From Methanomassiliicoccus sp. (GTDB lineage Archaea; Thermoplasmatota; Thermoplasmata; Methanomassiliicoccales; Methanomassiliicoccaceae), in assembly GCA_033485155.1 (NCBI GenBank), contig JAWQJJ010000001.1:1-64000 (forward strand): 64,000 nt of DNA, in the 5' to 3' direction. Below the pieces are notes generated by a model. It was not told where the DNA came from. It saw only the letters and a program-made list of their open reading frames with translations, and did not search any database. The translations under genes and the position numbers were made by a program. Shown here piece after piece: positions 3,670 through 42,345 of the stretch (position 1 is its first letter; the number at the start of each line of letters is the position of its first letter).

Positions 3670-4128
3670 TTGGCCAACAAAAAGAAAATGGACCTGGAAA
3701 CGCTGATAGGCTACTCCTTCAACGAACCGGAACTCATGGAGAGGGCCGTAGCCCATCACGGCACGATGAACGACGCCCGGGCGACGAACAAGGCAAAGGA
3801 CCCCGGACTAGCGGTGCTCGGACAAGCGGTCATATGCTGCACCGTGGTCAACCACTTCTACTCCCTGGGGATGAGCGAGGAACAGATCAACGGGGAGCGG
3901 AAGGCGAGGGTGTGCCGGGAGAATTACATCCGCGTTGCCGAGGCCATCGGGCTCGGAGAATATGTCATGCCCGAGGCCAGGAAGCGCTCGGCCAGCGACC
4001 TGCGGAGCGATAAACTCGGAGAGCGGTTCGAGGAGATCATGGGCGCGGTGTACCTGGACGACATCAACACTGGCGGCACCGGCATCGGGGCATGCTGGGA
4101 AGTGCTCAAGAAGGTCAACATGATCTGA
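3670..4128 (+). CDS. stand-alone RNase III-like domain, active site degenerate
   Basis: A 152-residue protein whose fold signature matches the RNase III catalytic domain: an IGYSFNEPELMERAVAH opening (family: lgy.F.n..Ll..AlTH), a LAVLGQAVI segment at 47-55 where the family has LEFLGDAVL, and ERFEEIMGAVYLD at 118-130 where the family has DxFEALIGAIYLD. The first catalytic Glu is Ala48, the following Asp is Gln52 and the second Asp is Glu118; only Glu121 keeps its place. No dsRNA-binding domain follows. The start is a TTG at 3670 preceded seven bases earlier by GGAGG. It may bind structured RNA without cutting it, or be a divergent nuclease. Confidence 0.7.
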   Translation: MANKKKMDLETLIGYSFNEPELMERAVAHHGTMNDARATNKAKDPGLAVLGQAVICCTVVNHFYSLGMSEEQINGERKARVCRENYIRVAEAIGLGEYVMPEARKRSASDLRSDKLGERFEEIMGAVYLDDINTGGTGIGACWEVLKKVNMI

Positions 4129-32544: not shown

Positions 32545-33507
32545 GTGCAGAGGGACGAGCTCATAGAGGCGGTGCGGTCGGTCCTGACCAAGTCCGGCTT
32601 CTTCGTCTCCAGACCCCTGGCCATGCGAGGAATTAGCTTCGACGTGGTGGCCAGGCGGGATGATACCCTTCTCATCGTCAAGATACTCAGCAACGTCGAC
32701 GCTTTCTCCAAGGAGAACGCCGAGGAGATGCTCACCCTGGGCGAGGCCCTGGGAGCGTCACCGCTGCTCATCGGGGAGCGCTCGGGGTCGGGAGACATCG
32801 ACGAGAGCATCGTGTACTCGAGGTTCGGGGTGCCCATAATCTCGCTGACCACGCTGTCCGACCACCTTCTGGAAGGCGTCCCTCCGTTCATCTTCGCCGC
32901 CCCCGGCGGACTGTACGTGAAACTGGACAGTCATCTGCTGAAGCAGCTGCGAGAGGAGAGAAACATCTCCTTGGGGACGCTGGCGGAGATCGCCGGGGTG
33001 TCCCGGCGGACGATCCAGATGTACGAAGGGGGCATGGGGGCGATGATCGATGTGGCCATCCGCCTGGAGGAGTTCCTTAACCAACCGATCGTCACCCCGG
33101 TCAACCCCTTCCAGCACTGCACCGCACCCAAGCCCCGAGAGAGGGACGGAGCGCCCGCGCGCTCCTCCGACGTGTTCGGCCAGGAGGTCTTCGACCAGCT
33201 GGCCCGGATGGGCTTCTCCATCATGCCCACCTCCCGCTGCCCGTTCGAGGCCCTCAGCAAGGACGAGCATATCCTCATCCTCACCGGCCTGGGCAAGGAC
33301 GACGCCAAGCTCAAGGAAAAAGCCATGGCCGTGGCCGACATCTCCAAAGTGACGGAGCGATGCTCGGTCATCTTCATCGAGAAGGCCAAGAGCAAGCACA
33401 ACATCGGAGGCACGCCCATCATTGGGAAGGACGAGCTCCGGAAGATCGCCGAAGCGTGCATCCTGTACGAGCTGGTAGGTTCGAGGAAGGATGATGAGGA
33501 CCATTGA
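32545..33507 (+). CDS. archaeal HTH regulator, COG1395 type
   Basis: A 320-residue regulator of the archaeal MF_00584/COG1395 type. The N-terminal 125 residues are a nuclease-fold-like domain (RGISFDVVARRDDTLLIVKI in part). A Cro/C1-type HTH follows (LKQLREERNISLGTLAEIAGVSRRTIQMYEGG in parts, near residues 130-165). A C-terminal domain continues to the end. The binding site is unknown. The start is a GTG at 32545, about 27 nt after CATATAGAAG; no ribosome site is seen, which suggests a leaderless mRNA. Overlaps the next gene by 17 bases. Confidence 0.85.
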   Translation: MQRDELIEAVRSVLTKSGFFVSRPLAMRGISFDVVARRDDTLLIVKILSNVDAFSKENAEEMLTLGEALGASPLLIGERSGSGDIDESIVYSRFGVPIISLTTLSDHLLEGVPPFIFAAPGGLYVKLDSHLLKQLREERNISLGTLAEIAGVSRRTIQMYEGGMGAMIDVAIRLEEFLNQPIVTPVNPFQHCTAPKPRERDGAPARSSDVFGQEVFDQLARMGFSIMPTSRCPFEALSKDEHILILTGLGKDDAKLKEKAMAVADISKVTERCSVIFIEKAKSKHNIGGTPIIGKDELRKIAEACILYELVGSRKDDEDH

Positions 33508-34123
33508 CCTGCAGACTGCCTCGGTCACCGTCCTCCCGGTGGTCAAGGGTCTGGTGAGCGAGGCCGAGGCGGTATCTCAGGCGTTCTCCGAGATCGATCC
33601 CGAGGTCATCGCCGTATCCATCTCCCGGGAGGAGCTGGACGCGCTGCGCAAGCGCGAGGATTACGACCTGTATGTGCCTTCCGATCTGGAGATCATCTAC
33701 CAGGCCTTCCTCGAGCGGTTCGGGGAGGTCCGCATCCCACCCCCGGCCTTCGTCCGGGCGCTGGAGATATCCGAGCATCAGGGCGCGGTGATCGTTCCAC
33801 TGGATATGAACGACGAGCTTTATACCGCGACCTATTGCGACAAGGTCAGCACCTTCGACATGATCCGCGAGTCCTTCTTCGCCCGAAGGGCCACCGGCAA
33901 GAGTTACGATGTCTCCACCCCCGCTACCTTCGTGCGGAGCTGGGACCGCCGCGTCAATCGGTCGGGGTTCCGGAAGCTGGAGGAAGCGAGGGAGAGGCAC
34001 ATGGCCGACGTCCTGCGCATTCTCGCCCGCAAGTACCGCCGGGTGCTGGCGGTGGTGGAGTGCGAGCGCTGCGAGGGCATTCTTGCCCTGCTCGAGGACC
34101 GCGAGGCCGAAACGGTAAAGTGA
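33491..34123 (+). CDS. TraB-like protein, divergent
   Basis: A 210-residue protein overlapping the upstream regulator. IDPEVIAVSISREELDALR (20-40) and ERHMADVLRILARKYRRVLAVVE near the C-terminus recall TraB/PrgY proteins, which have a similar order of a PDVVAVELD segment and a MA..L....VVAVVG segment. The usual GxxH motif is replaced by ECERC, so activity is uncertain. No membrane helix is visible. A role linked to the upstream regulator is inferred from the overlap only. Confidence 0.5.
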   Translation: MMRTIDLQTASVTVLPVVKGLVSEAEAVSQAFSEIDPEVIAVSISREELDALRKREDYDLYVPSDLEIIYQAFLERFGEVRIPPPAFVRALEISEHQGAVIVPLDMNDELYTATYCDKVSTFDMIRESFFARRATGKSYDVSTPATFVRSWDRRVNRSGFRKLEEARERHMADVLRILARKYRRVLAVVECERCEGILALLEDREAETVK

Positions 34124-34189: not shown

Positions 34190-35869
34190 ATGCAGGACCG
34201 CGTTCCACTGGGCATCCGTTTCACCGAGGCCGTGGATCGGCTGGTGCTGTGCCTTGAGCGGAACAGGCTGTCCATCATCGGCATCTTCTTGTACGTCCTG
34301 GCGGTGGCCCTGGTGCGGGACATCTCGGAGTATTACCTGCTCGACCATACCTTCGTGGTCGAGCCCCATCCCTGGATCTACAGCATCGCCCACCACGTCG
34401 CGTTCTACTTCCTCACCTTCTTCGGTCTGGTGCTCCTCATCTCCGCCTTCTCCCGGCGGGGCGTCAGGAAGGCGGTGAACTACGTCGCCTGTTTCTTCTG
34501 GATCATCATCCTGCCCCCGTTCCTAGACCATTTCCTGTTCGGCTCCCAGCAGAACTATGCATACTTCTCGCCCACCGACTTCCTGAACTACATCCTGCAC
34601 TTCAGCGGAGAGACCTTTCACCCCGGGCAGGCGCTGGAGATCGTCGTGGTGCTCTTCGCCGTGGTCTCCTACGTCATATGGGTCAAGCGGGCGAGGTTCA
34701 GCTCGGTGGAGGGGCGGGCCGCGGTAATAGTGGAGGTCGCCCTGCTCGTCCTCTTCACCGTACTGTCCCTCTTCTTCATGGCCACCCCCGGCGCCTATCT
34801 TCCGGTGGGCAGTGAGAACGGTGTGCCCTCTTTCCCCGGCTTCGACGTTACTAAGTACTTCCAGTACCACCTGTTCATCTTCGCCTATTACATGATTCTG
34901 CTGCTAGGCGTCCTAGCCTCCCTGGTGTACATCAACTACCCCCGGGCCCTCAAGGACCTGGTACTGAGCCTGCGGCCCTGGCAGACGGTATTTTTCACGG
35001 GCGTGGTGGCTGCGGGCATCGCCGCGGGGTGGGTCACCGCCGCCGGGCCGGAGTACATCTACGACATCCTGGACCGACCCTACTGGGTCAACCTCGCGTT
35101 CGTAATCCTCTCCCTACTCAGCACGGTGCTGGCCTGGCTGGTCACCACCATGTGGAACGACCTCAGCGACCACGCCGGGGACTCCCCCGGCCGCGCCGGC
35201 CGGGCCCTTGCCTCCGGGGTTGTGGGACGAAGGGAACTGGCCGAGGGGTCGGTGGTCCTCATGGGCCTCTCCCTGGTGATGGCCGCGTTGTTGTCTTGGG
35301 AGCATGTCCTCCTTCTAGCGGCCATCTTCCTGCTGGGAGCGGTGTACTCCTTCCGCCCGGTGAGGTTCAAGGAGCGCCTCCTGAGCCCGCTGCTGCTGGG
35401 CGCGGGGGCTTTCCTCGCTTTTATCTTCGGGTTCCTGACCCCGCTGAGCCCGGTGAGACTGTACCAGGGAGACCCATCCCTGGTGTACCCTGACAGCTGG
35501 AACCTGCTGTTCCCCACCTTGACGGTGCAGGCGGTGGTGCTCGGCATATACATGTTCATCGGCCTGGTGGTAGGCTCCATGGTCACTGACATCGATGGCT
35601 ATGCCGAGGATGCCAGGAGCGGGGTGCACACAGTGTATACGAGGTTCGGGATGGATCGAGGAAAGAGGACCGTCTCCACCCTTGTGCTTCTCACCTCCCT
35701 TACCCCCCTGGCCCTGTTCCAAGGGGTCCAGGATCTCATCGTCTTCCCGATGCTGGGCATCGCCGCCTCGGTGACCTTTCTGCGCACTGGGCGGGCAAGG
35801 TACGTGCTGGGCATCGCTCTGGTGGGCATGCTGTACGCCGCGTGGAGGTTCCTTCCCGCGCTCACCTAG
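34190..35869 (+). CDS. UbiA-family prenyltransferase-like protein with large N-terminal membrane domain
   Basis: A 559-residue multi-pass protein. The C-terminal half is UbiA-like: NDLSDHAGDSPGRAGRALASG near residue 323 corresponds to the first Asp-rich motif (NDxxDxxxD), and DIDGYAEDARSGVHT near residue 467 to the second. The N-terminal 270 residues add about six further helices with no recognised domain. UbiA enzymes attach prenyl chains, including the archaeal lipid geranylgeranyl step. It sits tail to tail with a geranylgeranyl reductase, which supports a lipid or quinone role. TTTATAATAATC about 26 nt before the ATG suggests a leaderless transcript. Confidence 0.75.
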   Translation: MQDRVPLGIRFTEAVDRLVLCLERNRLSIIGIFLYVLAVALVRDISEYYLLDHTFVVEPHPWIYSIAHHVAFYFLTFFGLVLLISAFSRRGVRKAVNYVACFFWIIILPPFLDHFLFGSQQNYAYFSPTDFLNYILHFSGETFHPGQALEIVVVLFAVVSYVIWVKRARFSSVEGRAAVIVEVALLVLFTVLSLFFMATPGAYLPVGSENGVPSFPGFDVTKYFQYHLFIFAYYMILLLGVLASLVYINYPRALKDLVLSLRPWQTVFFTGVVAAGIAAGWVTAAGPEYIYDILDRPYWVNLAFVILSLLSTVLAWLVTTMWNDLSDHAGDSPGRAGRALASGVVGRRELAEGSVVLMGLSLVMAALLSWEHVLLLAAIFLLGAVYSFRPVRFKERLLSPLLLGAGAFLAFIFGFLTPLSPVRLYQGDPSLVYPDSWNLLFPTLTVQAVVLGIYMFIGLVVGSMVTDIDGYAEDARSGVHTVYTRFGMDRGKRTVSTLVLLTSLTPLALFQGVQDLIVFPMLGIAASVTFLRTGRARYVLGIALVGMLYAAWRFLPALT

Positions 35870-37026
35870 GTCAGGGAGGAGAAGAACAGATAGGGGAAAC
35901 GGCGGACGATGAGCCGGAGGAGGGATTCCCAGCTCCTCTCCCCGTTGGATATCTCCAGGCAGGTGGCGACCAGCTGGGGATCGTCCTGCATCTTCCGCAT
36001 CAGCACCGGAGTGTTCACGACGCCCATCAGCCACTGGGCCTGGGGGGAGATGACCCGGGAGGCCCGCATCACCGGCAGGACGTCGGAGGCCAGTCCCCTG
36101 CGGTAAGAGGACAGGGGATGCGAGCCTAGGATCATGCCCTGCACCGCCTCCGCGGCGTGCCTTGCGCTGAGGAACGCATTGGTCATTCCCTCTCCCGACA
36201 GCGGGGAAGCGAACCCCGCGGCGTCGCCCACCACCAGGCATCTTTTGGTGTGCACCCGCCTTCGGGGGACCATGGGGATGGGGTGGGCGGACACCCGGAC
36301 CTCGCTCGCCTCTCCGTACCGCGCCTCGACGTTACTGCGCAGGCCGTCGAGCTCGGAGTGGTATATCGCGCCCTGGAGCCCCATCCCCGTGACCCCGATG
36401 TTGGCGCCGCCTTTGGTGGCGAACATCCACCCGTTGAGGGGGAACTTGAACCGGAACGGGTACCTCTCGATCGGCGTTCCCATGAGATGGTACTCCATCC
36501 TCCCCCCGGGGTCGCGGCCCAGCTTGCAGGTCAGAGCGATGCCGATCCCCTGGTCCCGACCAGGGTAGGGGCCGAAGAGGGCAGACGCCGTCCGGCTGGT
36601 GGCTCCCTCGGCCACGATGAGGGCCTTGGAGAACACCTCCCGACCATCCACCGTCATCTCCACGCCCTCGTCCCGTTCCCCCACCCTGGTGATGGCGGCG
36701 GGGCACCACAGTTCGGCTCCCGCCTTCTCCGCCTCCGATACGAGGAAGGCGTCGAAGGCCGAGCGGCGGACGGTCACCGCCGCCCTCCGGGGGAGCCCGA
36801 ACTCCGCCCTGAAGTCACGGTGAATGATGCCGACGGAGGTGATCTCCTGCTCGATGACCGCCTCGGGAAGTGGGCCGTCCAGCAGGCCGGCGGCCCGCTC
36901 CAGCAGCCCGCCCGCACAGCATTTCTCTCTTGGGATCGGCTCGCGCTCCAGCAGCAGGGTGCGCAGCCCCGCCCGCGCGCACAAGCACGCCGAGCGGGCT
37001 CCCGCTGGCCCCGCTCCGCTGACCAC
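35866..37026 (-). CDS. geranylgeranyl reductase family flavoprotein
   Basis: A 386-residue FAD-dependent reductase of the geranylgeranyl/digeranylgeranylglycerophospholipid type, expected to saturate archaeal lipid chains. GAGPAGARSACLCARAG at the N-terminus is the FAD dinucleotide motif, REKCCAGGLLERA near residue 33 is the family segment, and CLVVGDAAGFASPLSGEGM near residue 265 is the second FAD motif. The first canonical start codon is GTG at 37026, but codons upstream (DRFDVV) extend the FAD strand and GGAGGAGGA precedes an ATC at 37050, so the true start may be non-standard. The 3' end overlaps the UbiA-like gene by four bases. Confidence 0.85.
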   Translation of the reverse strand: MVSGAGPAGARSACLCARAGLRTLLLEREPIPREKCCAGGLLERAAGLLDGPLPEAVIEQEITSVGIIHRDFRAEFGLPRRAAVTVRRSAFDAFLVSEAEKAGAELWCPAAITRVGERDEGVEMTVDGREVFSKALIVAEGATSRTASALFGPYPGRDQGIGIALTCKLGRDPGGRMEYHLMGTPIERYPFRFKFPLNGWMFATKGGANIGVTGMGLQGAIYHSELDGLRSNVEARYGEASEVRVSAHPIPMVPRRRVHTKRCLVVGDAAGFASPLSGEGMTNAFLSARHAAEAVQGMILGSHPLSSYRRGLASDVLPVMRASRVISPQAQWLMGVVNTPVLMRKMQDDPQLVATCLEISNGERSWESLLRLIVRRFPYLFFSSLT

Positions 37027-37049: not shown

Positions 37050-40000
37050 TTACTTCCTCCTCCCTCTCCAGCGTCCCACCGCCTCGCTGGAGGCGACGAT
37101 CGCTACCATGCCCACGATGGGCAGGAAGATGGTCAGGTCGATGTTGCCGACGTTGACGTTGATGACCGATTCGCTATTGGCGGCAATCGAACTTATGGGA
37201 GTCTCGGTGAACCTCCATGATCCGGAAATGTACTGGTTGTTGGAGTATTCCCACAGCGAGGGGCCGTTCCCGGGGGTCCTACCGACCTGCGAGCCTACCA
37301 CCAGGATTATGTCGAGGTCCTGATCACCGTCGATGTCCCCCAGCTCCACGCCATGGATCTCGTATGCGCCGCTGGCAGGGCACATGATGGATAGCTTGGT
37401 GGTGTCCAGGGATTGAGGCGGGAAGACCCCGGGGTTCGAGGTCGTCTGCATCAGGACGAACAGCTTGCCGTTTGCAGCGGTGTCACCACCGATGCCCACC
37501 ACGATGTCCATGGGCTCGTTGATCACGTTCGACCCGAGATATTTCTTCATGTCACCAACGGCAAGGGCGGAGATGTAGCCTCCGCTGGACGTCCACTTAG
37601 GCTGCCCCCCGCTAGACCACTGCACGGTGGGCGAGTTGTGGCTCACGATGAGCTGGTTCAGAGTCAGGGTATCCTTGGTGGTATCGGTGACCGCCCGGTT
37701 CGTGTCAATAAAGCGCACGTAGTAGTACGAGTTGGGGGTGTAGGTCAGATTGTAGCTCACCGTCACATCGCTGTTCGAGGTGATGGTGCTGATGTCGAAC
37801 CAGGTGGCGTTGTCCACCGAGTACTGTATCTGGAAGCCCTCCGTGCCGCTCACATGCCCGACCACGGTAAGCAGCTGGTAGGCAGCCACGGCGTTGGGGA
37901 TCTGATAGACCCATGCTAGGGCCTTGGTTTGGATGAAAGTGACCTCCGCCCATACGTAGTCGAAGTGCACAGTGGACGATCCAGAGGGGTTCACGAACCG
38001 GACCATGAGGTTGGAGGTGATGTTAGCATACGAGTCACCGCCCACGCCGGTCAGGGCGAAGGTGGCGGTCACCTCCGAGGTTTCGCCGCTCTTGGGCTGG
38101 ATGTTGGTATTCGTCCACGTCAGGCCGTTGTTGAACGAGTACTGGATGTAGCCCGTGCCGGTATAGTTGGAATCGACCTTGTACTGGACCACCAGGCTGG
38201 TGGTCTTGATCGGGGTGGTCAGGTTCTCGAAGTTCAGCGAGAACGTGCCCAGGGCCATGGTCGTCCCCTGGCCGACGTCATAGTAGACGTTGTTGTCGGC
38301 ATAGATGTTGGCGATCGTGGATCCGGTCGTGTCGGCAGCGGTCTTGACGCCAGTGGCGTCGTATGGATCATAGAGAACGTCGACCTCGGTCAGGGCTTCC
38401 ACCGACGAATCGGAGGATAGCAGATTGGCTGCGGTACCGGTGCGGGTCGCGGTGAAGACCGTGTCGACCGGGTACTCGTACGACGGACCGTTATAAGGCA
38501 CCGTGGAGGCGACCTGCTGCGTGTAATAGATGTACACCGAGCGGTCGGTGGACAGGGTGCTGGTGCGCACGATGTCAGGGTATCCATCCCCGTTCATGTC
38601 CGCCACCCGGACCTTGGGCATGACCTGAGCATGGGTCCACGGAGTGTTGCCGGTCACCTTTTCTAGGGTCCTCAGGGAGTCGGAGGTGCTGAAGGTCCCG
38701 GACTGTGAGCCGGCGTTCTTCACCCACATGTTGAGCCAGACCTTGGTGCTGCCGTCCTCGTAGACCGCTACGATGTCCTTGTAGCCGTCCTGGTTGAAGT
38801 CGCCGACGGCGATGTCGCCGGCGGCCGGGTTGTTGTTGCTGTTGGCCTGATTGCTGGTGGAGGCTGCGGTCTTCCAATCCAGGGTGCTGTACAGGGTGGT
38901 CTTTGCCCAGTTGTTGCTCCCGTCGTTCCAGAATACATATATGCCGCGGTTGAAGTACATGCCCCAGCTGTTGGTGTAATCGGCGGAGTCCGTGCTGGTG
39001 GCGGTGGTGTACACGACCACATGCATGAAGCTGGCGACCACATCGGAGTAGCCGTTATTATCGAAGTCGCCTATCGCCAGAGCGGTGCACATCTCGTTCG
39101 TCGTATAGTAGCCATCATAGTACATGTCCGTACCTGAGGTCTTCCATACAGTAGCGTCCTCGTTGGTGTTGCCATACTGGTCTGAGTTATAGGCGGTCTG
39201 CGTCCCGCTGTAGGCGTCGAACGGATAGGTAATGGACCGGGCGCTGGACCATGTCGATCCGTCGCTCTTCTCGTTCTCGTACCAGAACAGGTTGGACAAC
39301 GAGGTGTCCTGCGCCCCGACCACTAGGTCGTTGCGGCCGTCACCGGTGAGATCTTCCAGGTACATGCCCAGGGGTCCTTTGCTGGGGTTCGAATCGATGA
39401 CCTTCTCGTTCCACTGGTCACCGCCCTTGAACCAGGCGATGGCATTGTTCTCCCAGGTCGCGCCGGACGAGCTCCAGGTGAACGAGCCGGAGCCGAGCGC
39501 GGCAGCCACATCGGCGGTGGTGAGCGGCGCGGTGACGAAGAACTGACAGCTCAGCTGGCTGTAGCTCTCACCGGTCGTTCCGCCGGTCCCGGTATCGAAG
39601 AAGGTGGAGATCTTGAGGGTGTAAGCGTTGGTCTTGGGCAGCCACCAGCCCTGGTTGGCGTCCTTGAGAGTTATCTTGAGAGTATACACGCCGTTGATGG
39701 TGTTATCACCGTACGGGGTTATGGTGATCCCATTGGTCTTGTACAGCGAAGAAAGGGGGGCGCTGTAGGAGGGCTGTGAATTGACCGGAGGCACGGGGGT
39801 GGCTGCCTTCATGACGATATAGCTGCCGGTATAGTCATCGACCTCTATGCCGCTGAGATACACCGTATCGGTGTAGCGGTCGACATCCTTGGTCCGGATG
39901 ATCAGGTACACGTCATCGGTATGATTGAAGGTGGTGGTCTTCACCAGGGTGTTGCCGCTGGCCACATAGGTCTCCAGCTGAGGATAGCTCGCGCCGTTGA

Positions 40001-41273
40001 CGTTGATGTAGTCGGCGATGTTGAAGGTGTTGCCCTGGTTATCTTTCATAATGATCTGCACCGGGTACCGGTACGCGGTGCTGGGGGCGGTGAAGTTGAA
40101 CACGAACTGCCGGAAAGTCGAGTAGGTCTTCCCTATCTGGAAGGCCGCATCAGAGGACGGGGAGATGGGAGTGGTTCCTTGCAGGGGCTGATAGATGTAG
40201 AACGAATTCCTCCCCGCGACGTTGCTGAGGGTGTCGCTCCAGACCTCAATGGTCACCCCCTCGCTGACGTTGAAGTTGCGGGTGATGGAGCCGTCGGAGG
40301 TCCTCTTGATGTAGTAGAAGGTGATGCCCAGAGCACCCCCGGCCTCACCGCCGCTGGCGTCAGGGGGATAGGTACCATTGGTGAGGTAATCGGAGTAGCT
40401 GGCGTAGGGGCTGTCAGAGATGCCCGTGCCGGCGGTGATGTCTATCGTCATGCTCTGCGTGACCCGGTGGCCGGATTTGTCACTGGCGTAAACCAGTACG
40501 GTGGCCCCATCCCAGGCATTCTTCGCGGTGAAGTAGCCCGAGACGTACAGGTTGAGGGTCGAGTTATAGGTCATCGGTATGGCCGAGGCCAGCTTGAGGG
40601 ACGAGGCGTTGACGAACACGCTGGTGTTGTCCAACTTGCTGTAAGGATCGCTGATCTGGACGTAGAACCTGACCGACGTGCCATCGTAGACCGGGGTGGG
40701 GGTGAGACCCCTGTCAGCGATGATGGGGAGGGTGGTCGCCGCCTGGGACCCGCCCTGCAGGGGCGCGCTGTACACCACGGTGTTGGCCACGGTGTCCACG
40801 ATCATGATGCTCAGGTCGGTGGTAGAAAGAACACCAGAGAACTTGTAGGTCCAGGTAATGCCAGTGGGCCAGGAAGCACTGGCGATGTTGCCGTCGGTGA
40901 ACTTAAGGGTGGAGGGGACGTTGTCGACGAACAGGTAGATATTGGTCCGATAGCTGTAGAGCTCCTCTCCGCCCTTGTGGGTGATGTTGATGTACGCGTC
41001 ATTGTTGGCGTTTCCCATCAACTTGATCGAGGACGTGAAGTCGGTATAGACCTTCTCGCTGGGGCCGGGCATGGAGGTCACGAAATACAGGATACCGGTG
41101 AACAGAGTGACGGTGATGGCGAGTATCAGCAGGTTTCCGATGATCTCCGATACACCGTAGCGGCTCCAGCTCTTACGCTTAGGGAAGGACCCGGACTTGA
41201 GGGAGCGGTCGCACGTTGAACTCAATCGGCCCGATGGCCGAGCAATGGGTTTGTCGCTCTGACGGACTATCAT
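37050..41273 (-). CDS. giant pilin-like surface protein with FG-GAP/VCBS repeats
   Basis: A 1407-residue protein. After a basic leader (FPKRKSWSRYG) comes VSEIIGNLLILAITVTLFTG, the N-terminal helix of archaeal type IV pilin-like proteins (DUF1628/pilin_N). Large beta-rich segments follow, many of them repeat-like. FG-GAP/VCBS calcium loops are visible near residues 640 (DLTGDGRNDLVVG), 733 (GDFDNNGYSDVV), 828 (GDFNQDGYKDIV), 891 (ADMNGDGYPDIV) and 1313 (GDIDGDQDLDII). A C-terminal helix and RWRGRRK end the protein. ATG 41273 is preceded by GGTGGTGA, better than the frame opening at 41354. It is likely a cell-surface adhesin or cell-wall spanning protein. Confidence 0.8.
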   Translation of the reverse strand: MIVRQSDKPIARPSGRLSSTCDRSLKSGSFPKRKSWSRYGVSEIIGNLLILAITVTLFTGILYFVTSMPGPSEKVYTDFTSSIKLMGNANNDAYINITHKGGEELYSYRTNIYLFVDNVPSTLKFTDGNIASASWPTGITWTYKFSGVLSTTDLSIMIVDTVANTVVYSAPLQGGSQAATTLPIIADRGLTPTPVYDGTSVRFYVQISDPYSKLDNTSVFVNASSLKLASAIPMTYNSTLNLYVSGYFTAKNAWDGATVLVYASDKSGHRVTQSMTIDITAGTGISDSPYASYSDYLTNGTYPPDASGGEAGGALGITFYYIKRTSDGSITRNFNVSEGVTIEVWSDTLSNVAGRNSFYIYQPLQGTTPISPSSDAAFQIGKTYSTFRQFVFNFTAPSTAYRYPVQIIMKDNQGNTFNIADYINVNGASYPQLETYVASGNTLVKTTTFNHTDDVYLIIRTKDVDRYTDTVYLSGIEVDDYTGSYIVMKAATPVPPVNSQPSYSAPLSSLYKTNGITITPYGDNTINGVYTLKITLKDANQGWWLPKTNAYTLKISTFFDTGTGGTTGESYSQLSCQFFVTAPLTTADVAAALGSGSFTWSSSGATWENNAIAWFKGGDQWNEKVIDSNPSKGPLGMYLEDLTGDGRNDLVVGAQDTSLSNLFWYENEKSDGSTWSSARSITYPFDAYSGTQTAYNSDQYGNTNEDATVWKTSGTDMYYDGYYTTNEMCTALAIGDFDNNGYSDVVASFMHVVVYTTATSTDSADYTNSWGMYFNRGIYVFWNDGSNNWAKTTLYSTLDWKTAASTSNQANSNNNPAAGDIAVGDFNQDGYKDIVAVYEDGSTKVWLNMWVKNAGSQSGTFSTSDSLRTLEKVTGNTPWTHAQVMPKVRVADMNGDGYPDIVRTSTLSTDRSVYIYYTQQVASTVPYNGPSYEYPVDTVFTATRTGTAANLLSSDSSVEALTEVDVLYDPYDATGVKTAADTTGSTIANIYADNNVYYDVGQGTTMALGTFSLNFENLTTPIKTTSLVVQYKVDSNYTGTGYIQYSFNNGLTWTNTNIQPKSGETSEVTATFALTGVGGDSYANITSNLMVRFVNPSGSSTVHFDYVWAEVTFIQTKALAWVYQIPNAVAAYQLLTVVGHVSGTEGFQIQYSVDNATWFDISTITSNSDVTVSYNLTYTPNSYYYVRFIDTNRAVTDTTKDTLTLNQLIVSHNSPTVQWSSGGQPKWTSSGGYISALAVGDMKKYLGSNVINEPMDIVVGIGGDTAANGKLFVLMQTTSNPGVFPPQSLDTTKLSIMCPASGAYEIHGVELGDIDGDQDLDIILVVGSQVGRTPGNGPSLWEYSNNQYISGSWRFTETPISSIAANSESVINVNVGNIDLTIFLPIVGMVAIVASSEAVGRWRGRRK

Positions 41274-41944: not shown

Positions 41945-42196
41945 TCAGATGTTCTGAATGTGCTCGGCCAGGAACTTCCTGATCTCCGGCTCATCGGGAA
42001 TGCTGATGGAGGACTTGTAGCGTTCGGAGCCGTCCTTCATCGTGTAGCCCCGGCTGAGCGATATGAACTCGGTGGTGCCGCTCTCACTGACCGCTCGCTT
42101 GCGGGCCACCTCTAAGAAATTGTTCTTCCCGAACGGGATCCTCTGGGAGTCCACGACCTCGAACTGAACATTGCGCTCGTTGCTTCCATCGCTCAT
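41945..42196 (-). CDS. small conserved protein, possibly PC4-like
   Basis: An 83-residue protein starting at ATG 42196 (AGGTG upstream), convergent with cyaB with no gap. The KNNFLEVARKRAVSESG and EFISLSRGYTMKDGSERYKSS segments look like a compact beta-sheet with a final helix (EPEIRKFLAEHI), somewhat reminiscent of PC4/p15-type single-stranded DNA-binding proteins. The resemblance is weak, so a family is not assigned. The 32 codons upstream of 42196 are outside the probable gene. Confidence 0.6.
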   Translation of the reverse strand: MSDGSNERNVQFEVVDSQRIPFGKNNFLEVARKRAVSESGTTEFISLSRGYTMKDGSERYKSSISIPDEPEIRKFLAEHIQNI

Positions 42197-42345
42197 GTCT
42201 ACACCTATCTGGAGTTTGGAACCCCCGCAAGCACAATAAAGGTTTTGCCTTCCCCTGCACTGCCTCCAGCGCCGGCCGCGGGAGGCTACCAATGGGCGTT
42301 GGGGAGTGCGACAGGTAGAAATATCCCGCCGCTCATTGAACGGAC

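Follow-up and report, generated by a model that had tools for sequence, protein, structure and literature searches.

The 64,000-nucleotide stretch analysed here (hereafter the window) comes from Methanomassiliicoccus sp. (contig JAWQJJ010000001.1, positions 1 to 64,000) and carries on its reverse strand the gene for a giant pilin-like surface protein, PLP1, which a preliminary description of the sequence had delimited with the right coordinates, strand and length. The gene and the features of its product are as follows:

37050..41273, reverse strand: PLP1, pilin-like surface protein of 1,407 aa, ATG at 41273, stop at 37050-37052
41154..41273, reverse strand: class III (prepilin-type) leader, residues 1-40, predicted cleavage RYG/VSEIIG after G40 (here and below the slash marks the cut)
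41076..41153, reverse strand: pilin-type hydrophobic helix, residues 41-66
39528..41045, reverse strand: predicted tandem beta-sandwich (Ig-like) stalk, residues ~77-582
38484..39506, reverse strand: predicted first part of an FG-GAP beta-propeller, residues ~590-930, loops at 641, 736, 825 and 892
37584..38471, reverse strand: predicted beta-sandwich/jelly-roll domain(s) inserted between propeller blades, residues ~935-1230
37179..37571, reverse strand: predicted last part of the propeller, residues ~1235-1365, degenerate loop 1241-1256, loop 1313-1321
37095..37151, reverse strand: C-terminal membrane helix, residues 1375-1393, inside a conserved GNIDLTIFLP-type motif
37053..37073, reverse strand: basic tail RWRGRRK

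The PLP1 frame is open upstream of the ATG as far as 41354, but translation most plausibly begins at 41273, since the position of this ATG and the GGTG motif upstream of it are both kept in close relatives. Our main survey searched 61 genomes of the order Methanomassiliicoccales, and the genome-wide counts given below come from these searches. PLP1 genes were detected in 24 of them, counting complete genes and those broken by contigs or frameshifts; the named relatives belong to Methanomassiliicoccus and to metagenome-assembled genomes of Methanomassiliicoccales. Differences from the nearest relative amount to 0.20, 0.12 and 0.345 at codon positions 1, 2 and 3, as expected under purifying selection, and indicate that such selection acts on PLP1. 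The existence of full-length relatives in about 24 genomes, together with this codon pattern, shows that the reading frame is not a chance one. In two draft genomes (G001 and G013, loci L052 and L021) PLP1 is split over two frames, by assembly error or decay. No second copy was found in the source genome, no PDB chain matching PLP1 by sequence was found, no S-layer domain was matched in PLP1 by Pfam or NCBIfam, and the literature covered, which was incomplete, yielded no publication describing the family.

The pilin-like character of the N-terminus is supported by a match of residues 40-113 to Pilin_N (PF07790; E=1.4e-10, 42.3 bits against a curated cut-off of 25.2). In an alignment of 18 full-length PLP1 sequences, of which the other rows are 37–74% identical to the window's PLP1, the leader, loops, C-terminal helix and tail are all retained. 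In the leader of every sequence, position -1 is G or A and position -3 is R or K, and residues V41, S42, N47, L51, I53, T54, V55 and F58 are invariant. The helix that follows the predicted cleavage site (residues 44-62, Kyte-Doolittle (KD) hydropathy 2.31) is one of only two hydrophobic helices in the protein, the other being that at residues 1375-1393 (KD 2.04). The -2 position is variable (K or R in 7/18 sequences, Y in the window's PLP1). The leader pattern agrees with those of the source genome's own archaellin and pilins, and the genome encodes a prepilin peptidase (PF06847, E=4.5e-14, 54.3 bits). PF01478 gave a sub-threshold match only.

Most of the chain is predicted to be beta-rich. 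FG-GAP_3 matches seven stretches (E=2.4e-16) and FG-GAP matches with E=6.9e-13, both above the curated Pfam cut-offs. Four calcium-type loops follow the strict DxDxDGxxD-type pattern (641, 736, 825 and 892), a fifth is near-strict (1313) and a sixth degenerate (1241-1256); judging from these six positions, the propeller may have about seven blades. Nine loop aspartates are invariant in the alignment (D641/645/649, D825/829/833 and D1313/1317/1321). AlphaFold2 (AF2) models, made from alignments of relatives, place a helix at residues 39-66 and beta-sandwich domains up to ~582 in the N-terminal part (residues 1-620, mean pLDDT 71). In the C-terminal part (residues 590-1407, mean pLDDT 78) they show a propeller region interrupted by a large insertion. 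Foldseek matches of the putative stalk include the KIT ectodomain, C3 macroglobulin domains, SiiE and the S-layer protein SbsB; those of the propeller region include, among many multidomain proteins, the FG-GAP propellers CRTAC1 and KICSTOR as well as the jelly-roll proteins reelin and carbohydrate-active enzymes.

The C-terminal helix is hydrophobic in all 18 sequences (KD 1.8-2.4), the last 12 residues are net positive in each of them, and several residues in the C-terminal part are invariant. The corresponding helix is absent from four examined members of PLP2, a sister subfamily that combines Pilin_N and FG-GAP (KD 0.45-0.59). Judged by these sequences, the C-terminal anchor is the mark of the PLP1 subfamily and an unusual second membrane anchor. 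A C-terminal sorting signal of the archaeosortase type is rejected, as no archaeosortase/exosortase (PF09721) scored above the cut-off in any of the 61 genomes, and none was found in the source genome at E<=0.01. The preliminary description had noted the pilin-like N-terminus, at least five D-x-D-x-D-G type loops and a terminal membrane helix ending in RWRGRRK, and had proposed structure prediction and a search for homologues of the same architecture; each of these features is present, the models and Foldseek matches support propeller and Ig-like folds, and the homologues share the architecture. Its suggestion of a protein spanning the cell envelope is not borne out: a single hydrophobic helix near either terminus, together with the positively charged tail, is compatible with both ends of PLP1 lying in the same cytoplasmic membrane.

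The same description had called the fusion uncommon, which is correct in one respect only. When 295 Thermoplasmatota genomes were searched with a profile, PF07790-like N-termini turned up on many frames of 1,000-2,400 codons, and the examples checked carry CARDB, Big_5, vWA or MAM-like modules without a C-terminal membrane helix. Since giant modular pilins with CARDB, Ig-like, vWA and FG-GAP modules are widespread in the phylum, and PLP2 repeats the combination of pilin and FG-GAP, this fusion is not exceptional. What is unusual in PLP1 is the conserved C-terminal anchor combined with two neighbouring genes for lipid-type enzymes, described below. PLP1 represents a conserved and hitherto undescribed subfamily of giant modular pilin-like proteins in Methanomassiliicoccales, whose surface proteins and pilus parts have so far been almost undescribed.

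The distribution of the PLP family links it to a type IV pilus-like machinery. The source genome has four matches to secretion ATPases, and in its operon L043 a pilin-like gene stands with the genes for two ATPases and for two platform proteins of the TadC type; a published census, according to which some Methanomassiliicoccus-type genomes lack secretion ATPases (PMC4858521), does not hold here. Of the 42 genomes that encode two or more T2SSE ATPases, 38 have PLP-family genes; the 19 with fewer have none. The four ATPase-rich genomes without PLP are G019, G028, G031 and G058, the last three being 73–81% complete. Independent support comes from G047, a member of family f2 with four ATPases plus a PLP-like gene, and from the near-complete genome G007 (f1), in which T2SSE ATPase, prepilin peptidase and PLP were all not found. 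In addition, residues ~935-1119 of PLP1 are shared with a 2,080-aa CARDB protein encoded beside the two-ATPase operon (two matches, E=1e-12 and 9e-12), and this neighbourhood is also conserved in G019. The 2,080-aa protein (L043 3771-10013) has an N-terminus resembling a signal peptide and continues with CARDB repeats, a single helix around residue 1843 and, after it, zinc-ribbon domains. The association of the PLP family with the two-ATPase/two-TadC machinery is a genomic one, and from it we infer that PLP1 may be in physical contact with the pilus or filament. Elsewhere the source genome contains an archaellum-type operon (L044, C3:190000-203000) followed by chemotaxis-type genes, in which the gene names beyond the ATPase are our reading of the sequence; Methanomassiliicoccus, in contrast, has been described as non-motile (PMC4858521).

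The second association is with two genes that follow PLP1 in the window:

35866..37026, reverse strand: geranylgeranyl-reductase-family FAD enzyme (GGR), ~24 bp downstream of PLP1, matching TIGR02032 and PDB 3oz2
34190..35869, forward strand: UbiA-family prenyltransferase, 559 aa, PF01040 E=1.4e-15, motifs NDLSDHAGD and DIDGYAED

GGR scores 152 bits against TIGR02032, slightly below the cut-off of 158.8, and its identification as the housekeeping archaeal-lipid reductase is unsupported (46 bits against a cut-off of 580). The extra N-terminal half of UbiA (window 34190-35069) is multi-transmembrane, with no Pfam match found. Nearly every relative with enough flanking sequence has the gene order CYTH - PLP1 - GGR - UbiA - g33491 - HTH, with GGR on the PLP1 strand; two loci (L107 and L109) have a second GGR copy, and the PLP1-GGR gap is longer in two others (L055 and L057). 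The 210-aa conserved neighbour that adjoins the transcriptional regulator (window 33491-34123) has no Pfam or NCBIfam match. In G022 (L108) PLP1, GGR and UbiA stand together while the other usual neighbours were not found within 6.8 kb upstream and 2.5 kb downstream, and because of this the trio may move as a unit. UbiA is present in 25 of the 61 genomes, namely in all 24 with PLP1 and in G024, where a PLP start and GGR-UbiA sit on two contig ends and a PLP1 gene is therefore presumed; the other 36 lack it. At the loci with PLP2 only (G027 and G030) both GGR and UbiA are missing. When PLP1 is mapped on a tree built from the flanking regulator, its state switches about six times, at least four of them on well-supported branches, and each time UbiA/GGR switch with it; PLP1 and these enzymes have undergone several independent gains or losses. 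With four well-supported contrasts, a sign test cannot reach significance. The link is strong as a genomic pattern, its mechanism being a matter of conjecture, and it ties a surface protein to two lipid-type enzymes in a sharp and testable way.

Taken as a whole, the sequence and the models agree with the earlier view of a giant, membrane-anchored, beta-rich and probably adhesive protein derived from a pilin. We propose, with moderate confidence, that this giant modular pilin-like protein is an adhesin whose two ends are both fixed in the cytoplasmic membrane, and that it acts in concert with the type IV pilus-like machinery of two ATPases and two TadC proteins. The protein would be exported through Sec by means of its class III leader, which would be trimmed, probably by the FlaK/PibD-type peptidase of the source genome, leaving the pilin helix as N-terminal anchor. 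The tandem Ig-like domains would form a stalk, and the propeller, presumably calcium-stabilised, would make up a binding head together with the inserted beta-sandwich. The C-terminal helix and basic tail would then bring the chain back to the membrane. So arranged, PLP1 is most likely a membrane-tethered adhesive or pilus-base element and not a bulk filament subunit. As a conjecture, the GGR-like and UbiA enzymes would probably synthesise or alter an isoprenoid that is required just where the C-terminally anchored form is in use. A stronger version, in which the three genes are a repeatedly gained and lost cassette and the doubly anchored adhesin depends on a dedicated isoprenoid lipid from both enzymes, appears unlikely to us at present; if true, it would constitute a new kind of lipid-dependent tether for an archaeal type IV pilus-like machine.

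Several points weigh against this proposal. The C-terminal membrane helix would be expected to impede the passage of PLP1 out of the membrane into a filament, so that a role in the pilus is not assured. The PLP1 gene lies outside the pilus operon. The association with ATPases represents few events, largely one clade-wide loss, since 18 of the 19 genomes with fewer than two T2SSE ATPases belong to f2. A charged residue at -2 is said to be critical for archaeal prepilin substrates (PMC4371748), and PLP1 has a neutral Y there; the rule may be looser in the source organism, whose archaellin (EMG/VG, M), operon pilin (RQG/VAS, Q) and short pilins (RSG/VSP, S) are also neutral at this position. Whole-chain Foldseek TM-scores are low, as expected of multidomain chains, so the matches are to be read at the level of domains.

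PLP1 can be compared with several known systems. With the archaeal type IV pilins that have PF07790 (Haloferax PilA, Sulfolobus Aap/Ups) it shares the class III leader, the cleavage site of G or A followed by V-S and the pilin hydrophobic helix, but it is several-fold larger and differs in its FG-GAP propeller, Ig-like stalk, C-terminal membrane helix and neutral -2 residue. Other giants of Thermoplasmatota, PLP2 included, resemble it in the PF07790 N-terminus and beta-rich chains of 1,000-2,400 aa; those checked have no C-terminal membrane helix, and those other than PLP2 use CARDB, Big_5 or vWA modules. PilY1/PilC adhesins of type IV pili are calcium-dependent. They too are large beta-propeller proteins, but unlike PLP1 they are not fused to a pilin; the PLP1 propeller is of the FG-GAP type, and no PilC/PilY1 domain was matched in PLP1 by Pfam at E<=1. 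The CdiP pilus of Cuniculiplasma divulgatum, from the same phylum, shares with L043 a pair of ATPases and a platform divided between two genes of its operon; the pilin CdiPB is of ordinary size, and the available excerpt of its description reports no giant propeller protein with CdiP (PMC12448462). In the excerpted account of bacterial modular pilins (PMC8179133), Streptococcus sanguinis PilB and PilC likewise join a pilin module to large functional or adhesive modules, and the largest such pilin noted has 860 aa. PLP1 agrees with them in the fusion of a pilin to a non-pilin module (Pilin_N plus FG-GAP, the latter supported by the models) and differs in belonging to an archaeal pilin family and in having a C-terminal membrane anchor, which that excerpt does not describe for PilB/PilC. 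The PLP family brings modular pilins to archaea, at up to 2-3 times the size noted in bacteria.

Among other explanations, the one that survives best, if as a tentative possibility, makes PLP1 an abundant part of the protein coat on the surface of an archaeon that has no classical S-layer, with both ends anchored, a leader used for insertion only and no tie to a pilus. The protein is large and acidic (net charge -42) with 13 N-glycosylation sequons, its stalk resembles SbsB and SiiE among others, and an unordered protein layer of unknown identity occurs on Thermoplasmatales, the make-up of the layer on S-layer-less Thermoplasmatota being treated as an open question (PMC12448462). A coat protein is, however, hard to reconcile with the many genomes that lack PLP1, some of which have the anchorless PLP2 at the same locus, with a distribution of the family that tracks pilus ATPases, and with a domain shared with a protein beside the pilus operon.

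It is more doubtful that PLP1 is a free minor pilin located at the filament tip like PilB and PilC of S. sanguinis, with its C-terminal helix removed or pulled out at assembly. The bacterial modular pilins follow the same logic (PMC8179133), and PLP2 and the other giant Thermoplasmatota pilins without the helix could indeed be tip adhesins. A modular pilin of this kind would, however, be expected to have a sole N-terminal membrane helix and a free C-terminus, while PLP1 keeps its second helix and basic tail throughout the alignment, in genomes where no archaeosortase above the cut-off is available to remove the helix. Least probable, and in our opinion very unlikely, is a receptor with its main function tied to what UbiA/GGR produce: PLP1 might, for instance, carry or sense a special prenyl lipid or gain stability from it, and pilus co-occurrence would then reflect no more than lifestyle. 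Near-perfect co-occurrence and adjacency over several independent gains or losses and the isolated trio in G022 speak for it, but no lipid-binding domain is recognised in PLP1, PLP2 at the same locus manages without the two enzymes, and the well-supported contrasts fall short of significance.

Two further observations concern the window. A 115-aa protein without a family match (window 41945-42292) shares 97% identity with its counterpart in the nearest relative and recurs at the PLP1 locus in most relatives. Between positions 4001 and 6000 the G+C content falls to 0.45, compared with ~0.62 across most of the window.

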